DNA of 64,000 nucleotides from Anaeromyxobacter sp. (GTDB lineage: Bacteria > Myxococcota > Myxococcia > Myxococcales > Anaeromyxobacteraceae), in the NCBI GenBank assembly GCA_025360965.1, contig JANYBC010000214.1, positions 1-64,000 on the forward strand, given 5' to 3'. Position numbers and translations under genes: made by a program. Under the pieces are notes generated by a model. The model was not told the origin of the DNA. It saw only the letters and a list, made by a program, of their open reading frames with translations, and made no database searches. Below are positions 21,450 to 33,432 of this stretch, piece after piece; position 1 is the first letter of the stretch; every line of letters begins with the position of its first letter.

Positions 21450-23168
21450 TCAGCTGACCTTGACCACCCCGGTCTCGGTCCCGTCGGCGTCGTGGGTGTG
21501 GATTGCGCAGGCCAGGCAGGGATCGAACGAGTGGATGGTGCGCAGCGCCTCGAGCGGCAGCTTGGGGTCGGCGATGGGGTTGCCGACCAGCGAGGCCTCG
21601 TAGGGACCGGGCTGCTCCTTGCCGTCCCGCGGGCCGGCGTTCCAGGTCGAGGGGACCACGCACTGGTAGTTCTTGATCTTGCCGTTCTCGATGACGCACC
21701 AGTGCGAGAGCGTGCCGCGCGGCGCCTCGTGGAAGCCGACGCCGTGGTAGGTGCCGGAGGCCATCTTGGGGAGGGGGTCGACGAAGATGCTGGTGTCGCC
21801 CTTGCCGATGTTGGCCACCAGCAGGTTCCAGTGCTTGAGCGTCAACTCGGACATCATGGCGCAGCGGATGGCCCGCGCCGCGTGCCGGCCCAGGGTGGAG
21901 TGGAGCATGGCCGGGGTCACGTCGATCTTGTGGATGGTCTTGACGGTCGAGATGGCCGCCCCCACCCACTTCACGGTGAGCGGGTGGTTGGTGAGGAAGC
22001 CGACCAGCACCTGGGCCAGCGGGCCCACCTGCATGGGCTTCCCCTCGAGCCGCGGCGCCTTGACCCAGCTGTACTTCTGCGGGGGCGCCGTCTCGGCCTT
22101 CCACTCGCCGCTGAACTTGGGGACGGTCTCCTCCTCCCACGGGCCGCGCTGCCAGTCGCCGTCGTAGTGCGAGTGGGCGATCGACTCGGTGACGTTCTTC
22201 TTGAGGTAGTCGTCGTTCCAGTTCTCGATCTTCCGCACGCCGGCCTGGCCGGCCATGATGACGCCGCCGGGGAGATCGAACTGGGTCATCTTGGCGTCGG
22301 TCGGCAGGTCGGGCACGGCCAGGTAGTTGGTGACGCCGGCGCCGTACTTGAACCACTCCGGGTAGAAGCCGGCCACCGCGGCCACGTCGACCAGGTAGCA
22401 CTGGGTGACGAAGCCGCTGACCTCGTCGAGCAGCGCCTTCACCTGGTAGAGCTTCGACATGTTGAGGGTGGAGGGGCTGTCGAGGTTGATGGCGTTGGCC
22501 ACGCCGCCCACCGCCAGGTTCTGGATGTGCGGCGTCTTGCTGCCGAGGATGGCCACGATCTGGTTGGCCTTGCGCTGGATCTCCAGGGCCTGCAGGTAGT
22601 GGGCGACCGCCAGGAGGTTGACCTCGGGCGGCAGCTTCATGGCCGGGTGGCCCCAGTAGCCGTTCTGGAACGGCCCCAGCTGGCCGGCGGCGACGAAGCC
22701 CGCCAGCTTCGACTTCACGGCGGTGAGCTCTTTGACCGAGTTTCCGGGCCAGTTGGAGATCGACTCGGCCAGCGCCGAGGCCTTGGCGGGATCGGCCTTG
22801 AGCGCCGAGACCACGTCGACCCAGTCGAGCGCCGAGAGGTGGTAGAAGTGGACGATGTGGTCGTGAAGCGAGTGCGCCGAGATGATGATGTTGCGGATCA
22901 GCTGGGCGTTGAGCGGCACCTCGAGCCCGAGCGCGTTCTCCACGCTGCGCACCGAGGTGATGGCGTGCACGGTGGTGCAGACGCCGCAGATGCGCTGGGT
23001 GAAGGCCCAGGCGTCGCGCGGGTCGCGGCCCTGAAGGATGGTCTCGATGCCGCGCCACATGGTGCCGCTCGACCAGGCGTTCTTGATCTGGCCGCCGTCG
23101 ACCTCGACGTCGATCCGCAGGTGCCCCTCGATGCGGGTGATGGGGTCGATGGTGATGCGCTGGCTCAT
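21450..23168 (-). CDS. hybC: [NiFe] hydrogenase large subunit (Hyb-type)
   Basis: RICGVCTTVHAITSVRS N-terminal Ni ligands; DPCLACAIH C-terminal Ni ligands with cleavable tail THDADGTETGVVKVS. Confidence 0.95.
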   Translation of the reverse strand: MSQRITIDPITRIEGHLRIDVEVDGGQIKNAWSSGTMWRGIETILQGRDPRDAWAFTQRICGVCTTVHAITSVRSVENALGLEVPLNAQLIRNIIISAHSLHDHIVHFYHLSALDWVDVVSALKADPAKASALAESISNWPGNSVKELTAVKSKLAGFVAAGQLGPFQNGYWGHPAMKLPPEVNLLAVAHYLQALEIQRKANQIVAILGSKTPHIQNLAVGGVANAINLDSPSTLNMSKLYQVKALLDEVSGFVTQCYLVDVAAVAGFYPEWFKYGAGVTNYLAVPDLPTDAKMTQFDLPGGVIMAGQAGVRKIENWNDDYLKKNVTESIAHSHYDGDWQRGPWEEETVPKFSGEWKAETAPPQKYSWVKAPRLEGKPMQVGPLAQVLVGFLTNHPLTVKWVGAAISTVKTIHKIDVTPAMLHSTLGRHAARAIRCAMMSELTLKHWNLLVANIGKGDTSIFVDPLPKMASGTYHGVGFHEAPRGTLSHWCVIENGKIKNYQCVVPSTWNAGPRDGKEQPGPYEASLVGNPIADPKLPLEALRTIHSFDPCLACAIHTHDADGTETGVVKVS

Positions 23169-24385
23169 GACGCCGTCCCTTCAGTGAGGCCGGCCGGAAC
23201 GTCACGCCCAGGAGGGGTGGAGACGCCGGCGAGGATGGGGAACTTCCGGACTACCAGGACGTAGATGACCGTCTCGGTGGCAATCAGCCCGAGTGTGACG
23301 AGGATCTCCGAGACGCTGGGGAAGTAGACCCAGCCGTTGCCCGGGTCGTAGGCGATCAGGAACACGTCGACGCGGTAGAGCGCGCCGCCCAGCATGGCCA
23401 GCAGCGCCGCCTGGAGCTGCTGGTGAGGGCGCCCGAGCTGCCCCTGGCGCAGGAAGATGACGGCCGAGGCCAGGAAGATCACGATCTCGGCCCAGAAGAA
23501 GAAGGCCATCCGGCCCGCCGAGTAGACCAGGCCGAGCTTCCCCTCCAGGCCGAGCACCACGAAGCGGAGCGCCAGGAAGGCCAGGATGGCGCCGGCCACG
23601 TACCTGCCCAGGGTGGCCAGCAGCCGGTTCTCCAGCGGCCGCATGAAGGCGGCGCTGGAGAAGATCGACTCGAAGTAGAGCACCCCGAAGCCCATGGCGA
23701 AGGCGGTGAACAGGAAGTAGAGGGGCAGGAAGCCGCTGTGCCACAAGGGGTGCAGCTTCAGGCCGGCCATCATCATCAGGCCGCCCAGGCTCGACTGGTG
23801 CATGGTCGGGAGCAGGAGCCCGAAGGCGATGAGGAAGGGCAGGGCCTTCTCGGCGCGCGGCAGCCAGCGGGCGGCGAAGCGCGCCCGGCCAGGAACCATG
23901 CCGGCCGCAAGCCCCTCCAGCCAGGCCGGGGAGAGCTCGAGGAAGATGACCACGGTGTAGGCCATCATGCAGAGCGCCACCTCGAGGAGGACCGAGGTGC
24001 TGCTCCAGTATTGGGGCGAGACCGGGATGCGCCACATGGTCCAGTAGCGGCCCAGGTCGAAGGCCACCGCCACGCCGGCCACGCCGTAGCCGAGCAGGCT
24101 GGTGAGCAGCGCCGGGCGGACCAGCGGGTGGTACTTCCCCTTGTTGAGGATGAAGACCAGGAAGGCCAGGACGTAGCCGCCGCTGGCCAGGCCGGTACCG
24201 ACCACCACGTCGATGGCGATCCAGATGCCCCAGGGATAGCCGTCGTTCATGGAGGTGGCGGCCCCCAGCCCCATGATGAAGCGATAGAGGCCGGCGATGG
24301 TGCCGAGCCCCCAGAGCAGGAGGAGGAACGTGACGCCGGGGGTGAGGAGCTTCCCGTGGACCGGGCGCGGCGGGGCGCTGCTCAT
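23165..24385 (-). CDS. hybB: NrfD/HybB-type membrane subunit of hydrogenase
   Basis: About 10 TM segments; operon position between HybA and large subunit; NDGYPWGIWIAIDVVVGTGLASGGY. Confidence 0.92.
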   Translation of the reverse strand: MSSAPPRPVHGKLLTPGVTFLLLLWGLGTIAGLYRFIMGLGAATSMNDGYPWGIWIAIDVVVGTGLASGGYVLAFLVFILNKGKYHPLVRPALLTSLLGYGVAGVAVAFDLGRYWTMWRIPVSPQYWSSTSVLLEVALCMMAYTVVIFLELSPAWLEGLAAGMVPGRARFAARWLPRAEKALPFLIAFGLLLPTMHQSSLGGLMMMAGLKLHPLWHSGFLPLYFLFTAFAMGFGVLYFESIFSSAAFMRPLENRLLATLGRYVAGAILAFLALRFVVLGLEGKLGLVYSAGRMAFFFWAEIVIFLASAVIFLRQGQLGRPHQQLQAALLAMLGGALYRVDVFLIAYDPGNGWVYFPSVSEILVTLGLIATETVIYVLVVRKFPILAGVSTPPGRDVPAGLTEGTAS

Positions 24386-25260
24386 GAGTCGTTCTCCTCG
24401 GCAGCGGTGACGGCATGGCGGTTCTTCCAGGCCACGATGGCGAAGGTCCCGAAGAGCACCATGGGGGCGAAGGCGCCCTGGTAGATGGCGTGCTGGACCG
24501 TCTCCACCAGCGCCGGCGCCGGCTCGTTGCCGAGGGCCGGCAGCCCGAACGGCGCGAAGCCGACCGGGGAGAGGTAGAGGCAGGCCGTGCCGCCACCCTG
24601 GGTCTCACCGTAGATGCCGCCCTGGTAGGCGGCCGGCTTCGCCGCCAGGCGGCGCTTGGCCTCGGCCAGCAGCTCGGGCCGGCTGCCCGACACCACCGCG
24701 CCGCGCGGACAGACCTCGGCGCAGGCTGGGCCCTTGCCCTGGTCCCACCGATGGCGGCAGAGCTCGCACTTGATGATCTTCGGCGAGGCCGAGGCCCACT
24801 GGAACTTCGGCACGTTGAAGGGGCAGGCGATCTGGCAGTTGCGGCAGCCGACGCACCGATCGACGTCGTACTGAACCACCCCGCGCTTCCCCTTGTGCAG
24901 CGCGCCCATCATGCAGACCGAGGAGCAGGCCGGGTCGGCGCAGTGCATGCATTGCGCCTTGAGGTAGCCGGTCTCGCTCTCGGTGCTCCACTGCCGGATG
25001 ACGCTGAGCGTGCTGCCGTTCAGGTCGGCCGGGGCATCGTAGGGCGCCCCGCCGATCATGGCGACGTCGGGCGCCAGGCCGTTGGCGTCGCGGCAGGCGA
25101 TCGAGCAGGCCCGGCACCCGACGCAGCGGGTGGCGTCGAAGAGCAGGCCCAGGTCGTCGGGGCCGCTTGGCTTGGGCGTGCGCGCCTCGGCCGTGGTGAC
25201 CGCGGCGGCGCCGGCGGCGGCGCCGAGGACCTTGAGCGCACCGCGACGGGTCATGGTCAT
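24382..25260 (-). CDS. hybA: Hydrogenase 4Fe-4S ferredoxin-type subunit HybA
   Basis: TAT-like MTMTRRGALKVLGAAAGAAAV; CVGCRACSIAC, CMHCADPACSSVC, CVGCRNCQIACPFNVP, CELCRHRW cysteine clusters; C-terminal TM. Confidence 0.93.
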   Translation of the reverse strand: MTMTRRGALKVLGAAAGAAAVTTAEARTPKPSGPDDLGLLFDATRCVGCRACSIACRDANGLAPDVAMIGGAPYDAPADLNGSTLSVIRQWSTESETGYLKAQCMHCADPACSSVCMMGALHKGKRGVVQYDVDRCVGCRNCQIACPFNVPKFQWASASPKIIKCELCRHRWDQGKGPACAEVCPRGAVVSGSRPELLAEAKRRLAAKPAAYQGGIYGETQGGGTACLYLSPVGFAPFGLPALGNEPAPALVETVQHAIYQGAFAPMVLFGTFAIVAWKNRHAVTAAEENDS

Positions 25261-26369
25261 GGCTTCTTCTCCTCGCCTTCGGCCCTCTTGACCTGGACAT
25301 TCAGCTTGCGGGAGGCGACGTAGCTGGCGCCGGCCGCCGCGCCGACCACCAGGCCACCGAGGCCGGCAGCGATGGCGCCCACCTCGCCCTTGCCGCCGCC
25401 GACGTTCGGGTAGGCCATGGGAGCGGTCGGCCTGTCGATCGGCATGTTCTGGTGGATCGGCACCGTGAAGGCGATCCCCTGCTCGGTGCAGCCGATGCAC
25501 GGGTGGCCGATGCCGATGGGCCAGGCCCCCGGCACCTCGCAGAAGTGGAGCAGCGAGCAGTTGGCGTGGGTCTGCGGCCCCTTGCAGCCGAGCTTGTAGA
25601 GACACCAGCCCTCGCGGTGGCCGGCGTCGCCGAAGGCCTGAGCGAAGCGGCCGTTGTCGAAGTGGGCGCGGCGCGGGCAGTCGTCGTGGATGACGCGGGC
25701 GTAGGCGAACTTGGGCCGGCCCTTGTCGTCGAGCGCCGGCAGCGTCCCGAAGGTGGCGAACTGCAGCACGGTGCCGAGCAGGTTGTAGGGGTTGGCCGGG
25801 CAGCCCGGGAGAGTGACCACGGTCTTGCCGGGGAGCGCCTGCGCCACCCCGACCGCGCCGGTCGGGTTGGGCGACGAGGAGGGGATGCCGCCCCACGAGG
25901 CGCAGGAGCCGATGGCGATGACCGCGGCCGCCTTCTCCGCCACGCGCCTGACCGTGTCGATGGCCTTGTGGCCGCCGACGTAGCAGTAGATGCCGTCGTC
26001 CTTGAGCGGGATCGAGCCCTCGACGATCAGCACGTACTTGCCGGCGTTCTCCTTCATGGTCTTCTCGAGCACGGCCTCGAACTGGTAGCCGGCGGCCGCC
26101 GCCAGCGTCTCGTGGTAGTCGAGCGAGATCAGGTCGAGGATCAGCTCGCCGAGGTCGGGCGCGCTGGAGCGCAGCAGCGACTCGGTGCAGCCGGTGCACT
26201 CCTGGAAGTGCAGCCAGATGACCGAGGGCTTCTTCCCCTTGGCCACGTTCTCCGCCATCTTCTCGCCGGCCCACGCCGGCATCCCGACCGAGGCGGCCGC
26301 CGCGGTGCAGATCTTGACGAAGTCTCGGCGGGTGACGGCGGAGGGTTCGGCTACCTCTGGGTGCGGCAT
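25257..26369 (-). CDS. hybO: [NiFe] hydrogenase small subunit
   Basis: TAT signal AVTRRDFVKICTAAAASVG; CTGCTESLLRS proximal cluster; C-terminal TM anchor; start taken as MPHPEVAEP. Confidence 0.93.
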   Translation of the reverse strand: MPHPEVAEPSAVTRRDFVKICTAAAASVGMPAWAGEKMAENVAKGKKPSVIWLHFQECTGCTESLLRSSAPDLGELILDLISLDYHETLAAAAGYQFEAVLEKTMKENAGKYVLIVEGSIPLKDDGIYCYVGGHKAIDTVRRVAEKAAAVIAIGSCASWGGIPSSSPNPTGAVGVAQALPGKTVVTLPGCPANPYNLLGTVLQFATFGTLPALDDKGRPKFAYARVIHDDCPRRAHFDNGRFAQAFGDAGHREGWCLYKLGCKGPQTHANCSLLHFCEVPGAWPIGIGHPCIGCTEQGIAFTVPIHQNMPIDRPTAPMAYPNVGGGKGEVGAIAAGLGGLVVGAAAGASYVASRKLNVQVKRAEGEEKKP

Positions 26370-26582: not shown

Positions 26583-26684
26583 GGAGCCCCGAAAGGAGGG
26601 GCTCCCCGGGTTGCAGCGGGAGCGGTCGAGGTGGCGACGGCGGCGCCCGTGAAGCGGCCGCCAGGTGTCAACGGAGGAGACACC
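26583..26684 (+). promoter_or_regulatory. Three consecutive hairpins in the leader of the 26710 gene
   Basis: GGAGCCCC-N7-GGGGCTCC (26583-26605); GGCGGC-N12-GCCGCC (26639-26662); GGTGTC-N9-GACACC (26664-26684). Stems read directly; RNA function unknown. Confidence 0.5.
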
Positions 26685-26709
26685 TTCACCACCTCGAAAG
26701 GATCCTCAC

Positions 26710-27221
26710 ATGAAGAGCACCGCCACCCCCAACCGCTTCCTGCAGGGCGCCATCGCCAGCTGATCGACCGGTCAACTGGTGGTGAACGGCGTCACCCTCA
26801 GCACGCCGGCCACCGTCAGGATCGAGGGGGTCGAGCGGCCGGAGAGCGAGCTGCGCGAGGGGATGGAGGTGCGGGTCAAGCTCCACGCCGACGCCAGCGG
26901 CCGGCACGGCGAGGGGCTCGAGATCCAGGCCGAGGACGCCGTGAACGGCGCCGGGCTCGGCACCTTCACGGTCAACGGCGTCACGGTCCGGATCGACGCC
27001 CTCACCGAGCAGCGCGACGCCGCAGCCGCCCTGATCAGCGGTGACCTCGTCGAGGTCCGTGGCGCCCCGGGCCGCGACGGCACCTCGCTGGTGGCCACCC
27101 GGCTGCAGCGGTCCAGCGACGCCCGGCCCGTCATCCGCGGCCTGTCTCGGCCAAGGACGCCGCCGCCTGGGCCGAGCCGGTGCTGACCGCCAAGGAGGTC
27201 GAGCTGGAGGGCGACGACTAA
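26710..27221 (+). pseudogene. Disrupted DUF5666-like gene (in-frame TGA plus 1-nt frameshift)
   Basis: MKSTATPNRFLQGAIAS*STGQLVVNGVTLSTPATVRIEGVERPESELREGMEVRVKL...; stop at 26761-26763 with open frame continuing; adding one C near 27142 joins ...RPVIRG to PVSAKDAAAWAEPVLTAKEVELEGDD* (stop 27219). Confidence 0.6.
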
Positions 27222-27364
27222 CCCCCTCCCGCGAAGGGGCGGCCGGGAGATGGCGTCCGGGTTAGGCTGGGAGGCGGCGTCCCGGGGCTCCCAGGCCGGG
27301 ATCCTTGGAGAGGCTGGCACGTCCAACCCGGCTCCGGTGTCACTTCGAGAGGAGGCTGTTCAAC

Positions 27365-27853
27365 TTGAGCGAGCACCGCAGCAAGGCGGCGGAGCTGTAC
27401 CGGACCTGGGGTCCGGCCGTCTACCGCCGCTGCCTCCGCATCCTGAAGGACCAGGAGGCGGCCAAGGACGCCACGCAGGAGGTCTTCGTGAAGCTGATCC
27501 GCGACATGTCGAAGCTCGAAGACCGCGAGACCGTGCTCCCCTGGATCTACCGGGTGGCCACCAACCACTGCCTCAACCAGCGGCGCAACGGCTCGCGCCG
27601 GGGCGAGGACTTCGAGGCGCCGCCGCTGGAACTGGTCGCGTCGGCCGACCACGACACCCTGCCGGACCGGCTGCTGGTCCAGAGCATCCTCTCCAGGTTC
27701 GACGCCACCACCCAGACCGTCGCCGTTGGGGTGCTGGTCGACGGCATGGAGCAGGAGGAGGTGGCCGTGGTGCTCGGCCTCTCACGCCGCACGGTGGCCC
27801 GCAAGCTGGCTCGCTTCCTGGACCTCGCCCGACACCACGTCGACCGGAGCTGA
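27365..27853 (+). CDS. ECF-type RNA polymerase sigma factor
   Basis: AKDATQEVFVKLI, WIYRVATNHCLNQRR region 2; QEEVAVVLGLSRRTVARKLARFL region 4; TTG start assumed. Confidence 0.9.
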   Translation: MSEHRSKAAELYRTWGPAVYRRCLRILKDQEAAKDATQEVFVKLIRDMSKLEDRETVLPWIYRVATNHCLNQRRNGSRRGEDFEAPPLELVASADHDTLPDRLLVQSILSRFDATTQTVAVGVLVDGMEQEEVAVVLGLSRRTVARKLARFLDLARHHVDRS

Positions 27854-27855
27854 CG

Positions 27856-28608
27856 ATGACCGCCCGCTGCCCTTCCGATCTCGCGCTGGAACGCCACCTG
27901 CTCTCTCCGGAGGGCACCGCGCTCATCGGCCACCTGGCGGCCTGCCAGGACTGTGCGGCCCGCCTCGCCACCATGCAGCGGCAGGGCGACGACTTCCTCC
28001 GCTTCGTCTACCCGGCCACCGTCGAGGCGGTCGAGGCGGCCGCCGCGCGCCCCTCCCTGGCGCTGGCCTGGCGCCGCTGGTTCGCGCTGGTCCCGGCCCT
28101 CGGTGGCGCCGCGGCGCTCCTCTTCTTCCTGGCCCGCCCGCAGGCCCCGCCCGACGACTACCTCGGCACCAAGGGCGGGGGACCGCTCGGCCTCGCCGTC
28201 TTCGTCCAGGATGGGCCGAGCCCTCGCCTGGCCCGCGACGGCGAGCCGGTGCCGGCCGCCGCCGCGCTGCGCTTCCGCGTTCGCATCGCCCGGCCGTGCC
28301 ACCTCTGGCTGCTCTCGGTCGACGCCCGCGGCCAGGTCTCGCGCCTCTACCCGACGGCGGGTGAGGGCGGGGCCTCGGTGGAGCAGAGCGCCGACCTGCC
28401 CGGCGGCGCGGTGCTCGACGGCCAGCCCGGTCCGGAGCGGATCGTCGCGCTCTGCGCGCCTGCGCCGCTCGGCTGGGCCGCGGCCGAGTCGGCGGTGCGC
28501 GCCTCGCTCGGTGCGCCCGGCCCGGATTCGGTGCGGCGCGCGGCCTCGATCGGCGGGCTTCCGGCCGGCACCGCCCAGGACTCGCTGCTGCTCGAGAAGA
28601 AGCCCTAG
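27856..28608 (+). CDS. Putative anti-sigma factor: N-terminal zinc finger, single TM, periplasmic DUF4384-like domain
   Basis: HLAACQDCAARL zinc-finger pattern; TM WRRWFALVPALGGAAALLFFLA; FRVRIARPCHLWLLSVDARGQVSRLYP; directly follows the sigma factor. Confidence 0.8.
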   Translation: MTARCPSDLALERHLLSPEGTALIGHLAACQDCAARLATMQRQGDDFLRFVYPATVEAVEAAAARPSLALAWRRWFALVPALGGAAALLFFLARPQAPPDDYLGTKGGGPLGLAVFVQDGPSPRLARDGEPVPAAAALRFRVRIARPCHLWLLSVDARGQVSRLYPTAGEGGASVEQSADLPGGAVLDGQPGPERIVALCAPAPLGWAAAESAVRASLGAPGPDSVRRAASIGGLPAGTAQDSLLLEKKP

Positions 28609-28611
28609 ACC

Positions 28612-30111
28612 ATGCGCCGCCTGCTCGCCACCCTCGCGCTCACCCTGCCGCTCAGCGCCGCCGCCCTGTCCGGGCGCGTGGCGGTGGTGGCGGGCATGAA
28701 CCAGGGGGCCGCCGGCCGGCCCAAGCTCTGGTTCGCAGAGAAGGACGCCGAACGGTTCGAGCGGGCGCTGGTCGAGCTGGGCGACTTTCCGCCCGATGGC
28801 GTCGAGCTTCTGCGCGGCCCGACCGCGGCCACCTTCCGCGAGGCGCTGGTCCGCGCCGAGGCCCGCGTCCAGGCTGCTCGCGCCAGCGGCGAACGGACCC
28901 TGCTGCTGGTATTCTACTCCGGCCACGCCGGCGCAGGCGGCCTGGAGTTCGGCGCCGACCGCGTCGGCTACGACGAGCTCAGGGCGGCGGCGGCCAACTC
29001 CAGCGCCGAGGCCAAGGTGGTGGTGGTCGACGCCTGCGAGGCCGGCGCGCTCACCCAGGTGAAGGGGGCGCGGGCCGAGGCGCGGCTCGACTTCGCCCTG
29101 CCGGTCGACGAGGTGCGCGGCACCGCCTTCATCGCGTCGACCGCGGTGGGCGAGGCGGCCCAGGAGTCGGCCGCCATCGGCGGCAGCTTCTTCACCCACC
29201 ACCTCGAGGTGGCGATCCGCGGCGCCGGGGACGCCAACGGAGACGGCCAGGTCACGCTGGCCGAGGCCTTCCGCTACACCTCGCAGGCGACCGTCTCCGA
29301 CACCTCGGCGACGCGCACCGGGGCCCAGCACCCGACCTACGACTTCCGCATGTCCGGCCGCGGCGACGTGGTGCTGGCCGACCTGCGCCGCGCCGAGGCC
29401 AGGCTGCTGGTGCCGGTCGACCCGGGGGCCCTCTACGTGCTGCGCGGTCCGCGCGGCCTGACCGCCGAGGTGCCGGCCGGCGCCACCGAGCTGGCGCTGG
29501 CGCTCCCGGCCGGCGAGTACGCCGTGGAGCGGCGCGCCCGCAACGGCCGCGCCCTCGGGCAGGTCACGCTCGGCCGCGGCGAGACCCGCGCGCTGCCGCA
29601 GCTGATCCCGACCCGCTACGAGGTGGCCCGCTCCAAGGGCGGCCCGCTGCCGACCGAGATCTGGGTCGGCGCCGGCCTGCAGACCACCGGCCTGCCCGGC
29701 AGCCTGGCGCTCCCGGGCTTCCGGCTCGGCCTGCGACGCGAGGTCGGACCGCTGGCGCTGGTGGTCCACGCCGACTACGCCGTCGGTGACGTCACCGAGC
29801 GGGCCCTCACCTACGGCTACACCCGCGCCGGCGGCGGTCTCAGTGCGCTGGTTCCGGTGGCCGGCGGCCGGGCGCTGCTGGAGGGCGGCCTCGACCTCGG
29901 CGGCGGCTGGAACAGCCAGTCGCTCCCCGACGGACGCCACTTCGAGACCGGCGACCTGACCGCCGGCCTGGCGCTGCGAGGCTCGATGCCGCTCGGGCCG
30001 CTCCGCGCGGCGCTCGATCTGACCGGGGGCGCCAAGATCTTCAGCCTCGACGGCGGCCGGGTGGTCCGACCTGTCGCCAACCTCTCGCTCCTCCTGCTCT
30101 ACGGGCTCTGA
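28612..30111 (+). CDS. Secreted caspase-family (peptidase C14) protein with C-terminal beta-barrel-like region
   Basis: Signal peptide; catalytic His YSGHAGAGG and Cys VVDACEAG; DANGDGQVTLAEAF EF-hand-like loop; alternating barrel-like C-terminus ending LSLLLLYGL. Confidence 0.85.
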   Translation: MRRLLATLALTLPLSAAALSGRVAVVAGMNQGAAGRPKLWFAEKDAERFERALVELGDFPPDGVELLRGPTAATFREALVRAEARVQAARASGERTLLLVFYSGHAGAGGLEFGADRVGYDELRAAAANSSAEAKVVVVDACEAGALTQVKGARAEARLDFALPVDEVRGTAFIASTAVGEAAQESAAIGGSFFTHHLEVAIRGAGDANGDGQVTLAEAFRYTSQATVSDTSATRTGAQHPTYDFRMSGRGDVVLADLRRAEARLLVPVDPGALYVLRGPRGLTAEVPAGATELALALPAGEYAVERRARNGRALGQVTLGRGETRALPQLIPTRYEVARSKGGPLPTEIWVGAGLQTTGLPGSLALPGFRLGLRREVGPLALVVHADYAVGDVTERALTYGYTRAGGGLSALVPVAGGRALLEGGLDLGGGWNSQSLPDGRHFETGDLTAGLALRGSMPLGPLRAALDLTGGAKIFSLDGGRVVRPVANLSLLLLYGL

Positions 30112-30113
30112 CC

Positions 30114-31550
30114 ATGCGCCGTCGCTCCCAGCCGGGTGCTGCTCACCTCCTCGTCTTCCTGCTGGCCGGGCTGCTGCTCGGCGCCTGCGGCGGGACGCTC
30201 TACGACGCCGCCGGTGTCCCGCCGCTGATCGGCGGGGGTGGCCCGGCCTGCGATGCGCCGCAGCACGTCTGCAGCGGGGCCTGCGTGGCCCAGTCGGTGG
30301 CCGCCTGCGGCCTCTCCTGCGCTGCCTGCAGCGCCAGCGATCCAAACGCCACCGCGGTCTGCGAGCCGGGGGTGAGCGGGGCCTTCGCCTGCGGGGAGGT
30401 CTGCCAGCCCGGCTGGTTCAGCTGCACGGCCGGCTGCTGCCGGGCCACCGTGGTCGCGGCCGGCGACGACCACGCCTGCGCCGTCACCAGCGACGGGGCG
30501 CTGCTCTGCTGGGGCAAGAACGACGCCGGCCAGCTTGGGCCGGGCGCCGCGGGGCTGCTCCGGTCGGTCCGCCCGGTCACCGTGCCGCTCTCCGGCGTCA
30601 CCGCGGTGGCGGCCGGCGGACGCCACACCTGCGCGGTGGCGGGCGGGGTGGTCCAGTGCTGGGGGGCGAACGAGTCCGGGCAGCTCGGCGGCGGTGGCAC
30701 CGCGGCCACCTCGACCATCGTCTCCGGCGTGCTGACCGGCGCCACGGCGCTGGCGCTCGGGTCCCGCCACACCTGCGCCGTCGTCGGCAGTGGCCTGGCC
30801 GCCTCGGTCCAGTGCTGGGGGGCCAACGACAAGGGCCAGCTCGGCACCGGAACCCTCGTTGGCCAGGCCTCGCCGGTCGCTTCGCTGGTCTCGCCCGGGG
30901 CGACCTCGCTCTCGGCGGCCGGGGACAACACCTGCGTGGTGACCGGCGGGCAGGCGAAGTGCTGGGGACTTGACCTCGAAGGGCAGACCGGCTTCGGCGC
31001 CTCCGCGCCATCCCGTGCGACTCCGGTCAACGTCCCCCTCCCTCCCGCGCTCCCGGGTCCCTTCATCAAGATCGCCGCTGGCCGGAAGCACGCCTGCGCC
31101 AACGTCACTTCGAGTGGCGTGACGCCGCTCTTCTGTTGGGGCTCAGGAGGGGAGGGCGAGATGGGGACCCGCTCGACCACACCCAATCCCCAATACGTGC
31201 CGGTCCAGGCCTCGCGGATTGACGCTGGCCAACTGGCTGGCGCCTTCGCTGCTGGCGAGGCCTTCACCTGCACAGCCAAGGCCGGTGATCTCACCATGAA
31301 GTGCGCCGGCCGGAACGACCAAGCGCAGTGCGGCGGACCGCCCTCCGGACCCGCCGTCCTCGAGCTCGAGGTGACGTTCGGCGGCGGAACCGCGCTTGCC
31401 GCCTCGGCCGGGCGCGCCTTCACCTGCGCGCTCGTCAACCTGGCTGGCCAGCATGTGGTCATGTGCTGGGGCAGCAACGCCGAGGGCCAGCTCGGCCGAG
31501 CCACCTCGGCCTCGGCCCCGTCCCAGACGCCCGAGCTGGTCGGGAACTGA
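30114..31550 (+). CDS. RCC1-repeat (beta-propeller) lipoprotein
   Basis: Lipobox LLLGACGG; seven repeats of form HTCAV...CWGxNxxGQLG. Confidence 0.9.
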   Translation: MRRRSQPGAAHLLVFLLAGLLLGACGGTLYDAAGVPPLIGGGGPACDAPQHVCSGACVAQSVAACGLSCAACSASDPNATAVCEPGVSGAFACGEVCQPGWFSCTAGCCRATVVAAGDDHACAVTSDGALLCWGKNDAGQLGPGAAGLLRSVRPVTVPLSGVTAVAAGGRHTCAVAGGVVQCWGANESGQLGGGGTAATSTIVSGVLTGATALALGSRHTCAVVGSGLAASVQCWGANDKGQLGTGTLVGQASPVASLVSPGATSLSAAGDNTCVVTGGQAKCWGLDLEGQTGFGASAPSRATPVNVPLPPALPGPFIKIAAGRKHACANVTSSGVTPLFCWGSGGEGEMGTRSTTPNPQYVPVQASRIDAGQLAGAFAAGEAFTCTAKAGDLTMKCAGRNDQAQCGGPPSGPAVLELEVTFGGGTALAASAGRAFTCALVNLAGQHVVMCWGSNAEGQLGRATSASAPSQTPELVGN

Positions 31551-31638
31551 GCCGGCCGGTCGGCCCACTCCGACCGCCCCAACAGGGCTGTCCCGCCGAA
31601 TCGAGACTGAGTGTCATCCAGCTGAAAGGGGACACACC

Positions 31639-32172
31639 ATGACTCGAAACCTCCGGAACGCCTTCCTCATCCTCACCACCGCCACCCTCGCCGCCTGCGG
31701 CAACGCCAGCTCAAAGGGGACCATCGGTCCCCAGGGCGGCACGCTCCGCTCGCCGAGCGGCGTCACCCTCGCCGTCGCGGCAGGCGCCGTCGCCACCGAG
31801 ACGCAGTTCGAGATCATCGACGCGGCACCCCGCCACGGCGAGCACCGCCGCATCCAGCTCGAGCCGCGCGGCCTCAAGCTCACCGCCAAGGCGACCGTCA
31901 CCGTGGTGGTGGACGACTCGAAGGGGCCGGTCAAGCTGGTCGAGGTCGAGACCGAGCACGGCGCCGAGGGGGAGGTCGAGGTCGAGCACGCCATCGAGGC
32001 CGAGCACGGCGTCGAGGTGGAGACCGAGCACGGCCGCGAGGCCGAGATCGACCATCTCGGCGAGCTCGAGGTCCGCGACGCCGCGCCCTGCGACCCGGCC
32101 TGCGACACCGGCCTCGAGTGCGACGACGGCGTCTGCAAGGCGCACGGCGGTGGCGGCCACTCGGGTCCGTAG
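31639..32172 (+). CDS. Lipoprotein with ZU5-like N-terminus, Glu/His-rich repeats and Cys-rich C-terminus
   Basis: LTTATLAACGN lipobox; GTIGPQGGTLRSPSGVTLAVAAGAV; EVETEHGAEGEVEVEHAIEAEHGVEVETEHGREAEIDHL; CDPACDTGLECDDGVC. Confidence 0.75.
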   Translation: MTRNLRNAFLILTTATLAACGNASSKGTIGPQGGTLRSPSGVTLAVAAGAVATETQFEIIDAAPRHGEHRRIQLEPRGLKLTAKATVTVVVDDSKGPVKLVEVETEHGAEGEVEVEHAIEAEHGVEVETEHGREAEIDHLGELEVRDAAPCDPACDTGLECDDGVCKAHGGGGHSGP

Positions 32173-32280
32173 CCCGAGCAGGCGCCGAAGCGCAGCGGAG
32201 CGCCGCGGAGGGGCCACCAGCCCACCGCGGCGTTGGCGCGTTCGAGGACTGCTCATGTAGAGTCCGGCTCGAGGAGGTCC

Positions 32281-33432
32281 ATGCACCTGCGCCAGCCGGC
32301 GGCCGCCGCCACGTTCCTCCTGCTGCTCAGCTCGTGCGCACTGGTGCGCCCGGTCCGGGTCTCGCCAGATGGGCGAGAGCTGGAGGTCGATGGGGAGCGC
32401 TGGCGTGCCCAGGACGGCCTCACCCTCTTCGAGCGGGATGGCCGGGTCCACGTGGTCTCGGTCGGCCCCGACAGCGGCTTCGACGTGGCGGTCCCGTTCG
32501 GTCCCGACGGCCGCCCGGCCTGGCCGGCCCGGGCGCCCTTCGAGGTCACGGGTGGCACGATCCGGCTCCTCGACAAGGGCGGGAGCGTGGCGGCGCTGGT
32601 CGAGTCGCGGCAGCTCCACACCCACGCCGAGCACTTCCACCTCACCAGCCGCTATGCCAACGCCGACTGGCAGGCGCTCTACGCGCTGCGTGCCGAGGGG
32701 TCGGCGCTCGACCCGGTGCGGCGGCAGCTGGCCGCCAGCGTGCTGGCCGAGCTGCTCGATGAGAGGCTGCCGGGGAAGTCGGAGCAGGCCACCTTGGCGG
32801 CGCTGCGCCGCCTCGACTCGGTGATGGCCAAGGCGCACCGGGCGGTGCTGTCCGGCCAGTCAGGCCAGGAGGTCCTCGGCATCCTCGGCCACGACCTCGA
32901 GATCTCGGAGGGAGGCCGGAAGCTGGAGATCGAGGGGCAACGCTTCCGCGCCGCAGAGGGGGTCCGCTTCGTATACGACGCCGGCCACTTCCACGTGGAG
33001 TCGACGGCCGGCACCTGGGTGCAGGTGGTCCAGCTCGACGCCGTGGATCCCGGCAGCTTCGAGCTGCCGCCCTCGATCTTCTACGAGCTGAAGGACGGCG
33101 TCATCGAGGCCCGGCCGACGCTCGGGCTCTGGCAGACCCTGGCCGAGTCGCATCAGCTCCGGTTCACCAACGACCACTGGCACCTGACCGAGGCCTACCG
33201 GCCGGTCCGGCCGCTGCTGATCGCGGCCGAGGACAAGAAGCTGTCCGAGGGGCAGCGTGATCGGGCCCGGGGCAGGGCGCTGGAGGTGCTGCGGGTCCGC
33301 CTCGACCTCACCAGCGAGCAGGAGCTCCAGTCGCAGCTGGCGGCGCTCGACCAGCTCATCGCGCGGCTGATCGCGGAGACCGAACGGGAACGGCGCAGTC
33401 CTCCTGCCCCCCCGGGGCCGAAGAGGCGCTAA
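32281..33432 (+). CDS. Hypothetical lipoprotein with two homologous tandem domains
   Basis: LLLLSSCALV lipobox; LEVDGERWRAQDGLTLFERDGRVHVVS... and LEIEGQRFRAAEGVRFVYDAGHFHVES... align. Confidence 0.75.
   Translation: MHLRQPAAAATFLLLLSSCALVRPVRVSPDGRELEVDGERWRAQDGLTLFERDGRVHVVSVGPDSGFDVAVPFGPDGRPAWPARAPFEVTGGTIRLLDKGGSVAALVESRQLHTHAEHFHLTSRYANADWQALYALRAEGSALDPVRRQLAASVLAELLDERLPGKSEQATLAALRRLDSVMAKAHRAVLSGQSGQEVLGILGHDLEISEGGRKLEIEGQRFRAAEGVRFVYDAGHFHVESTAGTWVQVVQLDAVDPGSFELPPSIFYELKDGVIEARPTLGLWQTLAESHQLRFTNDHWHLTEAYRPVRPLLIAAEDKKLSEGQRDRARGRALEVLRVRLDLTSEQELQSQLAALDQLIARLIAETERERRSPPAPPGPKRR

Follow-up and report, generated by a model that had tools for sequence, protein, structure and literature searches.

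We analysed a 64-kb window (the whole stretch of DNA considered here, positions 1 to 64,000 of contig JANYBC010000214.1) from the 3.8-Mb draft genome of an Anaeromyxobacter sp. (assembly GCA_025360965.1), which carries a gene cluster encoding an extracytoplasmic function (ECF) sigma factor, a membrane anti-sigma and a secreted caspase. A preliminary description, made from the sequence alone, had grouped six same-strand open reading frames at this locus into a candidate system, and all six were found with the coordinates, strand and spacing it gave:

27365-27853, + strand: ECF sigma factor, 162 amino acids (aa), TTG start behind GGAGG
27856-28608, + strand: membrane anti-sigma with a DUF4384-like periplasmic domain (DUF4384 1.3e-5 in Pfam, just under the cut-off)
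28612-30111, + strand: secreted caspase, 499 aa (Peptidase_C14, PF00656, 6.6e-9, over the cut-off; supported by AlphaFold2 and Foldseek)
30114-31550, + strand: RCC1-repeat lipoprotein, whose gene partners this caspase subfamily (RCC1_2 4e-30 in Pfam)
31639-32172, + strand: ZU5-like, Glu/His-rich lipoprotein (ZU5 0.003 in Pfam, below the cut-off)
32281-33432, + strand: 'tandem' lipoprotein (no Pfam match over the cut-off)

The evidence supports one operon of four genes, encoding sigma, anti-sigma, caspase and RCC1 protein (27365-31550), and for these the six-gene grouping stands. The fifth gene, 31639, probably has its own promoter, is co-regulated with the neighbouring operon and belongs to the regulon. 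The sixth, 32281, is unrelated and was rejected as a module member, being an orphan with 0 relatives in 40 related genomes and a promoter score of 2.7 (versus 19.3 and 17.5 at the two promoter sites described below).

The sigma protein matched Sigma70_r2 at 1.2e-14 (Pfam), gave a region-4-type match and scored 3.4e-18 against TIGR02937 (over the cut-off); it consists of regions 2 and 4 without long extra domains, the composition expected of an ECF factor, and orthologs in the same position share 54-68% identity. Its neighbour combines a helical domain bearing an HxxxCxxC motif, invariant in six aligned anti-sigma orthologs, with one transmembrane (TM) helix (about residues 75-93), a disordered linker and a DUF4384-like beta domain (111-249). 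AlphaFold2 modelled this protein with a mean predicted local distance difference test score (pLDDT) of 81, falling below 50 in the linker (80-108), and placed the beta domain where the DUF4384 match lies. From the HxxxCxxC motif, the TM helix and the adjacent sigma gene, the protein is predicted to be a class I (ZAS-type) anti-sigma that inhibits the sigma factor. In the RCC1 protein, the seven repeats originally described were recovered by eye, while HMMER counts 5-6.

Searching the caspase against 60 related genomes returned full-length matches in a first tier at 55-64% identity and a large second tier at ~35-43%. First-tier loci (including L036, at 49%) carry an RCC1-repeat lipoprotein gene directly 3' of the caspase and the same ECF sigma and anti-sigma genes 5' of it, with the sole exception of L038, an extra copy without sigma and anti-sigma; the L046 locus ends at a contig edge inside RCC1. 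The order sigma, anti-sigma, caspase, RCC1 is kept in nearly all close orthologous loci. This is the conserved neighbourhood that the preliminary description had set as a test, and the recurrence of the quartet led us to reject a chance neighbourhood. In the second tier, the sigma/anti-sigma/caspase order is usually kept, often with 4-nt overlaps (ATGA), and the gene 3' of the caspase commonly encodes another lipoprotein, not RCC1, so that RCC1 marks one subfamily within a wider design. The triad of sigma, anti-sigma and caspase recurs across Myxococcota, with several copies per genome in myxobacteria; the present genome holds a second, divergent caspase copy (L056) on another contig, accompanied by yet another lipoprotein. 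Once the pattern was set, 15 caspases from other families were fetched as an out-of-sample set; their genomes all lie outside the order, with one belonging to the same class and the remainder sharing the phylum only. A recognised sigma and anti-sigma adjoin 13 of these 15 caspases.

The caspase itself comprises a signal peptide, a caspase domain, a beta domain and an 8-strand barrel, with the following features:

28924-28926, + strand: catalytic His105 (95/95 homologues; 15/15 outside the order)
29035-29037, + strand: catalytic Cys142 (95/95 homologues; 15/15 outside the order)
29230-29265, + strand: EF-hand-like loop DxNxDGxVTLxEA in the caspase domain (kept in nearly all homologues)
29653-30105, + strand: eight-strand outer-membrane beta-barrel, residues 348-498 (AlphaFold2 block with pLDDT mostly 82-94)

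The catalytic dyad is intact, as originally read. Two acids of the S1 pocket, known from metacaspases (PMC6426788), were matched by position to Asp95 and Asp211 of TbMC2 (PMC6426788): D45, present in 95/95 homologues, and D140, which is Asp in 90/95; both occur in 15/15 caspases outside the order. Metacaspases cleave on the C-terminal side of Arg or Lys, and the same is believed of orthocaspases (PMC8283722, PMC6426788). We predict the protein to be an orthocaspase-like C14 peptidase with an acidic S1 pocket and a basic P1 preference. In the AlphaFold2 model, built with six orthologs, a caspase-like domain and a beta domain are accompanied by eight long strands spanning 348-498. Foldseek searches against the Protein Data Bank (PDB) matched the barrel to OmpX (5.8e-6) and NspA (TM-score 0.71), as well as OmpA and Ail, bearing out the barrel fold that had been set as a further test, and matched the caspase part to procaspase-7 (rank 18, E 1.5e-3). 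Sequence searches of solved structures with the caspase yielded weak metacaspase matches only (metacaspase-4, 7e-4). The barrel ends in ...LLYGL here and in a terminal Phe or Tyr in several orthologs. By topology, the caspase would reside in the periplasm.

Three conserved basic-Gly pairs, one in the anti-sigma and two in the caspase, connect these proteins in our analysis:

28171-28176, + strand: K106-G107 in the juxtamembrane linker of the anti-sigma, proposed caspase cut site (from conservation)
29062-29067, + strand: K151-G152 in the caspase, 9 residues past the catalytic Cys, where activating self-cleavage of the p20/p10 type is proposed
29635-29640, + strand: K342-G343 in the caspase, proposed self-release site between beta domain and barrel ([KR]G in 91/95 homologues, 96%)

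When 34 diverse anti-sigmas were aligned (mean column identity 33%), G107 was the only invariant column, and K106 was one of three further columns conserved at 90% or above. The pair sits 8-25 residues past the TM helix, within the predicted disordered linker, and stays fixed while linker length and flanks vary. Across 122 anti-sigmas, [KR]G was found in the linker of all 107 encoded beside a caspase, versus 8 of the 15 without one. Out-of-sample anti-sigmas outside the order carry K-G after the TM helix in 13/13 cases, mostly as R-x-K-G. Caspase-family enzymes are commonly processed shortly after the catalytic Cys. At position 151, 94 of 100 caspases have K and 1 has R, G152 is present in 95/100 (95%), and the pair lies inside a segment with pLDDT below 50. 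Position 342 is K in 73 and R in 18 of 95 homologues and G343 is found in 95/95, with entropies of 0.97 (K342) and 0 (G343) versus mostly 2.3-3.4 bits in neighbouring columns. These are the only two [KR]G pairs kept above 90% in the caspase, and 15/15 caspases outside the order have both of them, as K-G past the Cys and as [KR]G ahead of the barrel. The interchange of K and R at the sites fits what a basic-P1 protease would allow, and the simplest reading suggested by these patterns is that one basic-specific protease may recognise all three sites.

A candidate promoter of the sigma factor was derived from regions upstream of sigma genes; a global alignment of these with MAFFT showed nothing clear, and a fixed-spacing motif search gave the motif TGKCMC-N15-RGTGT, with a spacing of 15-16 nt in group-A loci. 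Two sites in the window stand out:

27315-27340, + strand: predicted sigma promoter TGGCAC-N15-GGTGT, 24 nt before the sigma start, best site in the window
31589-31614, + strand: further predicted sigma promoter TGTCCC-N15-AGTGT, 24 nt ahead of the start of gene 31639, second-best site in the window

Nearly all group-A orthologous loci have the motif 5' of their sigma gene. The position weight matrix (PWM) was trained on sigma-upstream sites alone, so the training set included 27315 and not 31589; over both strands of the window, these sites scored 19.3 and 17.5, followed by 14.1 for the next. The exact pattern has 5 matches in the 3.8-Mb genome, two of them here, and the remaining three adjoin no evident start. 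The top two matrix sites of L043, L044 and L036, and two of the four best in L037, precede the sigma gene and a downstream gene for a secreted protein. Such downstream targets carry DUF5666, DUF4382-like or ZU5-like domains. Because of its promoter site, the ZU5-like gene 31639 is a likely sigma target; a homologue (44% identity) lies 3' of the quartet in L037/L032, again with PWM sites. The motif is not specific to caspase-bearing genomes: relatives hold 0-12 matches per genome, and it also occurs beside caspase-less paralogous sigma loci.

At L081 and L083-L085 (G011, G017, G006, G019), caspase-less orthologous sigma/anti-sigma pairs are found. The same motif there precedes a divergent YceI gene, next comes a Rieske-type gene, and a CHRD lipoprotein is encoded nearby. 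At L042 (10383-12752, - strand), a sigma-type promoter site precedes genes for a cupredoxin-like lipoprotein, a lipoprotein of 378 aa and a YceI protein. The 378-aa protein has a relative, recognised by eye, that is encoded directly after the caspase-less anti-sigma of L125, a locus from the window's genus.

On balance, we lean towards an envelope-signalling module in which the caspase serves as site-1 protease of an ECF sigma switch. The proposal builds on the gene content and order, the barrel prediction, the promoter motif and the finding that the three sites are conserved, as are the catalytic and S1 residues; from these we infer the cleavage steps, the cellular location, the role of the RCC1 protein and the signal. 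At rest, the membrane anti-sigma would hold the sigma factor, and the caspase would sit in the periplasm, tethered to the outer membrane by its C-terminal barrel, with the RCC1 lipoprotein as a probable partner or sensor. On a signal, the caspase may process itself at K151-G152, free itself from the barrel at K342-G343 and cleave K106-G107 of the anti-sigma, in the stretch that separates the membrane from the DUF4384-like domain. Further proteolysis (the usual RseP/ClpXP-type steps, which we assume) would then release the sigma factor, which would transcribe its own operon, giving positive feedback, along with nearby secreted lipoprotein genes such as 31639.

Several points weigh against this proposal. 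The proposed cut site lies ~13 residues from the inner membrane, whereas the protease is placed in the outer one, so that self-release or a long reach is needed; self-release would answer how an outer-membrane protein gets to the inner membrane. The caspase core (143-260) is poorly modelled by AlphaFold2. Some caspase-less loci keep the linker site, namely five barrel-only relics, L174, L089 and L082 (as RG), and a divergent caspase class with Ala at 140 lacks K151-G152, with most members also lacking K342-G343. The second copy in the present genome, L056, belongs to this class, in which the anti-sigma nevertheless keeps K-G. A phylogenetic pair (sign) test had too few pairs for significance (5 pairs, ~2 for, 0 against, p 0.5). 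In favour of the proposal, the tree requires caspase presence to change 7 times and the linker site 4 times, all rows without the linker site are caspase-less, caspase-less branches make up 9.5% of tree length, and a post hoc figure for the coupling of caspase and linker site came to 8e-5, which is suggestive, not proof.

These caspase-less loci also bear on a rival explanation, in which the anti-sigma K-G is structural, as the entry to the first DUF4384-like strand, or serves another periplasmic protease, and resembles the caspase sites by coincidence. The pair indeed lies just before the first strand (residue 111), and it persists in L174, in L089 beside matrixin-like genes and in the class with D140 replaced by Ala. 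However, orthologous DUF4384 anti-sigmas in caspase-less loci have lost it, both in L125, from the window's own genus, and in the clade of L081 and L083-L085, so the fold can do without it; the pair is also fixed despite variable linker length and flanks, and K is replaced by R in L040. We consider this explanation quite unlikely.

Among the loci concerned, L148, L150, L152, L169 and L177 (Myxococcaceae-type) are natural barrel-only derivatives: the caspase domain is gone, and a signal peptide, [KR]G and the barrel follow directly after the anti-sigma. At L089 (G024), a DUF4384 anti-sigma with K-G is followed, by eye, by matrixin-like genes in place of the caspase. In L082 (G016) and L086 (G013), the sigma/anti-sigma pair lacks a caspase and adjoins a divergent cupredoxin-like lipoprotein, which in L082 matches Copper-bind at 3.7e-4; the anti-sigma linker reads RG in L082 and QG in L086.

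Alternatively, caspase, barrel and RCC1 protein could all be outputs of the system, with a housekeeping site-1 protease freeing the sigma factor and the caspase acting on other envelope or foreign proteins in surface remodelling, predation or cell death; its basic-Gly sites would then serve self-processing only. The caspase does lie within the sigma-controlled operon, and caspase-less sigma/anti-sigma pairs persist, apparently controlling secreted YceI, Rieske and cupredoxin proteins. Left unexplained is why the linker site accompanies every one of the 107 caspase-adjacent anti-sigmas and why its loss is confined to loci without a caspase, and we regard this explanation as credible but unlikely.

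A cell-death or contact-dependent module, as the preliminary description had suggested, is highly improbable in our judgement. Developmental lysis occurs in myxobacteria, and the protein belongs to the caspase family, with distant similarity to EACC1-type caspases (6.5e-15, far below the cut-off). In contrast, the module shows no killing domain and no NTPase or death-domain partner, its predicted regulon consists of secreted lipoproteins, and PADLOC returned no match for any of the six proteins, upon which a defence-system reading was dropped. No specific evidence for a cell-death or cell-contact function emerged. The interpretation in that description is partly supported: the envelope module is real, conserved and under sigma control, and it does combine a secreted caspase that has a barrel with a propeller lipoprotein. 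The linked basic-Gly sites and the sigma promoter motif were not part of that description.

The same gene association was noted in 2012, when one passage pointed to conserved sigma-70/metacaspase operons in myxobacteria (Myxococcus, Anaeromyxobacter, Haliangium, Sorangium) and a few others (Asplund-Samuelsson et al., PMC3501461), a record missed by the preliminary description, whose author knew of no described system with this composition; that passage contains no DUF4384 anti-sigma, barrel, RCC1 lipoprotein, basic-Gly sites, promoter or mechanism. RseA/DegS/RseP-type systems likewise have a membrane anti-sigma with a periplasmic part and, as proposed here, a periplasmic first cut, but their site-1 protease is DegS, whereas here it would be an outer-membrane-tethered caspase. 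In the type III-E CRISPR system CASP/Craspase, the caspase-clan protease Csx29 cuts Csx30 and thereby relieves inhibition of an ECF-type sigma, and the locus has an autoregulated promoter (PMC10028731), which makes it a precedent for a caspase-family protease acting on the inhibitor of such a sigma. That system differs in being cytoplasmic and RNA-guided, with a CHAT protease, no membrane parts and an unrelated inhibitor; a switch of this type was rejected for the present locus, as its genes include no Cas7-11, Csx29 CHAT or Csx30, and its protease is a C14 enzyme with signal peptide and barrel. EACC1/EACC2 systems (PMC8195603; NF047832) share a caspase domain and sometimes a nearby ECF sigma gene, whereas the caspase here is secreted and comes with a barrel and a transmembrane anti-sigma; assignment as EACC1-associated caspase (NF047832) was rejected at 55.2 versus a cut-off of 140 bits. 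Neighbours with CHAT domains have been mentioned for ECF54 (PMC8999054). TonB-dependent cell-surface signalling likewise runs from an outer-membrane barrel protein to an inner-membrane anti-sigma, but no TonB receptor is present here and the 8-strand barrel bears a protease. Orthocaspases (PMC6426788, PMC8283722) have in common the HC dyad, the acidic S1 pocket and the expected basic P1, and are known as fusions to WD40 beta-propellers and to DUF4384, the latter in 23 cyanobacterial cases (PMC8283722); here, DUF4384 lies on the anti-sigma, the RCC1 propeller on a separate lipoprotein, and the caspase carries an outer-membrane barrel. Our literature search for caspases that target an anti-sigma turned up Csx29/Csx30 and no envelope case, although most subscription papers lay outside it and an earlier description is possible. 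The architecture, sites, promoter and regulon, and mechanism of the envelope system appear undescribed.

Just 5' of the sigma gene lies a DUF5666 gene remnant (26680-27219, + strand; Pfam 4.4e-16) with an in-frame stop and a frameshift; sister loci carry intact DUF5666 lipoproteins that are apparent sigma targets. Further upstream, on the opposite strand (21450-26369, - strand), translations resemble a membrane-bound [NiFe] hydrogenase operon by eye.

More tentatively, the preferred reading of the caspase as site-1 protease may extend to a paralogously expanded, phylum-wide Myxococcota family in which an outer-membrane-anchored caspase self-activates, parts from its barrel and cleaves its cognate anti-sigma, all at basic-Gly sites of one kind. 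Equally tentatively, the receptors could be secreted lipoproteins that are swapped between systems: the RCC1 propeller here and unrelated ones in sister systems. Bacterial caspases are mostly discussed in terms of cell death. This large, conserved family offers a predicted natural substrate, predicted self-cleavage sites, a predicted cognate promoter and natural caspase-less controls, so that an origin or a role of caspases in proteolytic signal transduction becomes directly testable. If true, a caspase cascade would carry a signal across the bacterial envelope to transcription, in organisms known for multicellular behaviour, and would represent both a site-1 protease of a new type and a new route for signalling from the outer membrane to the cytoplasm.

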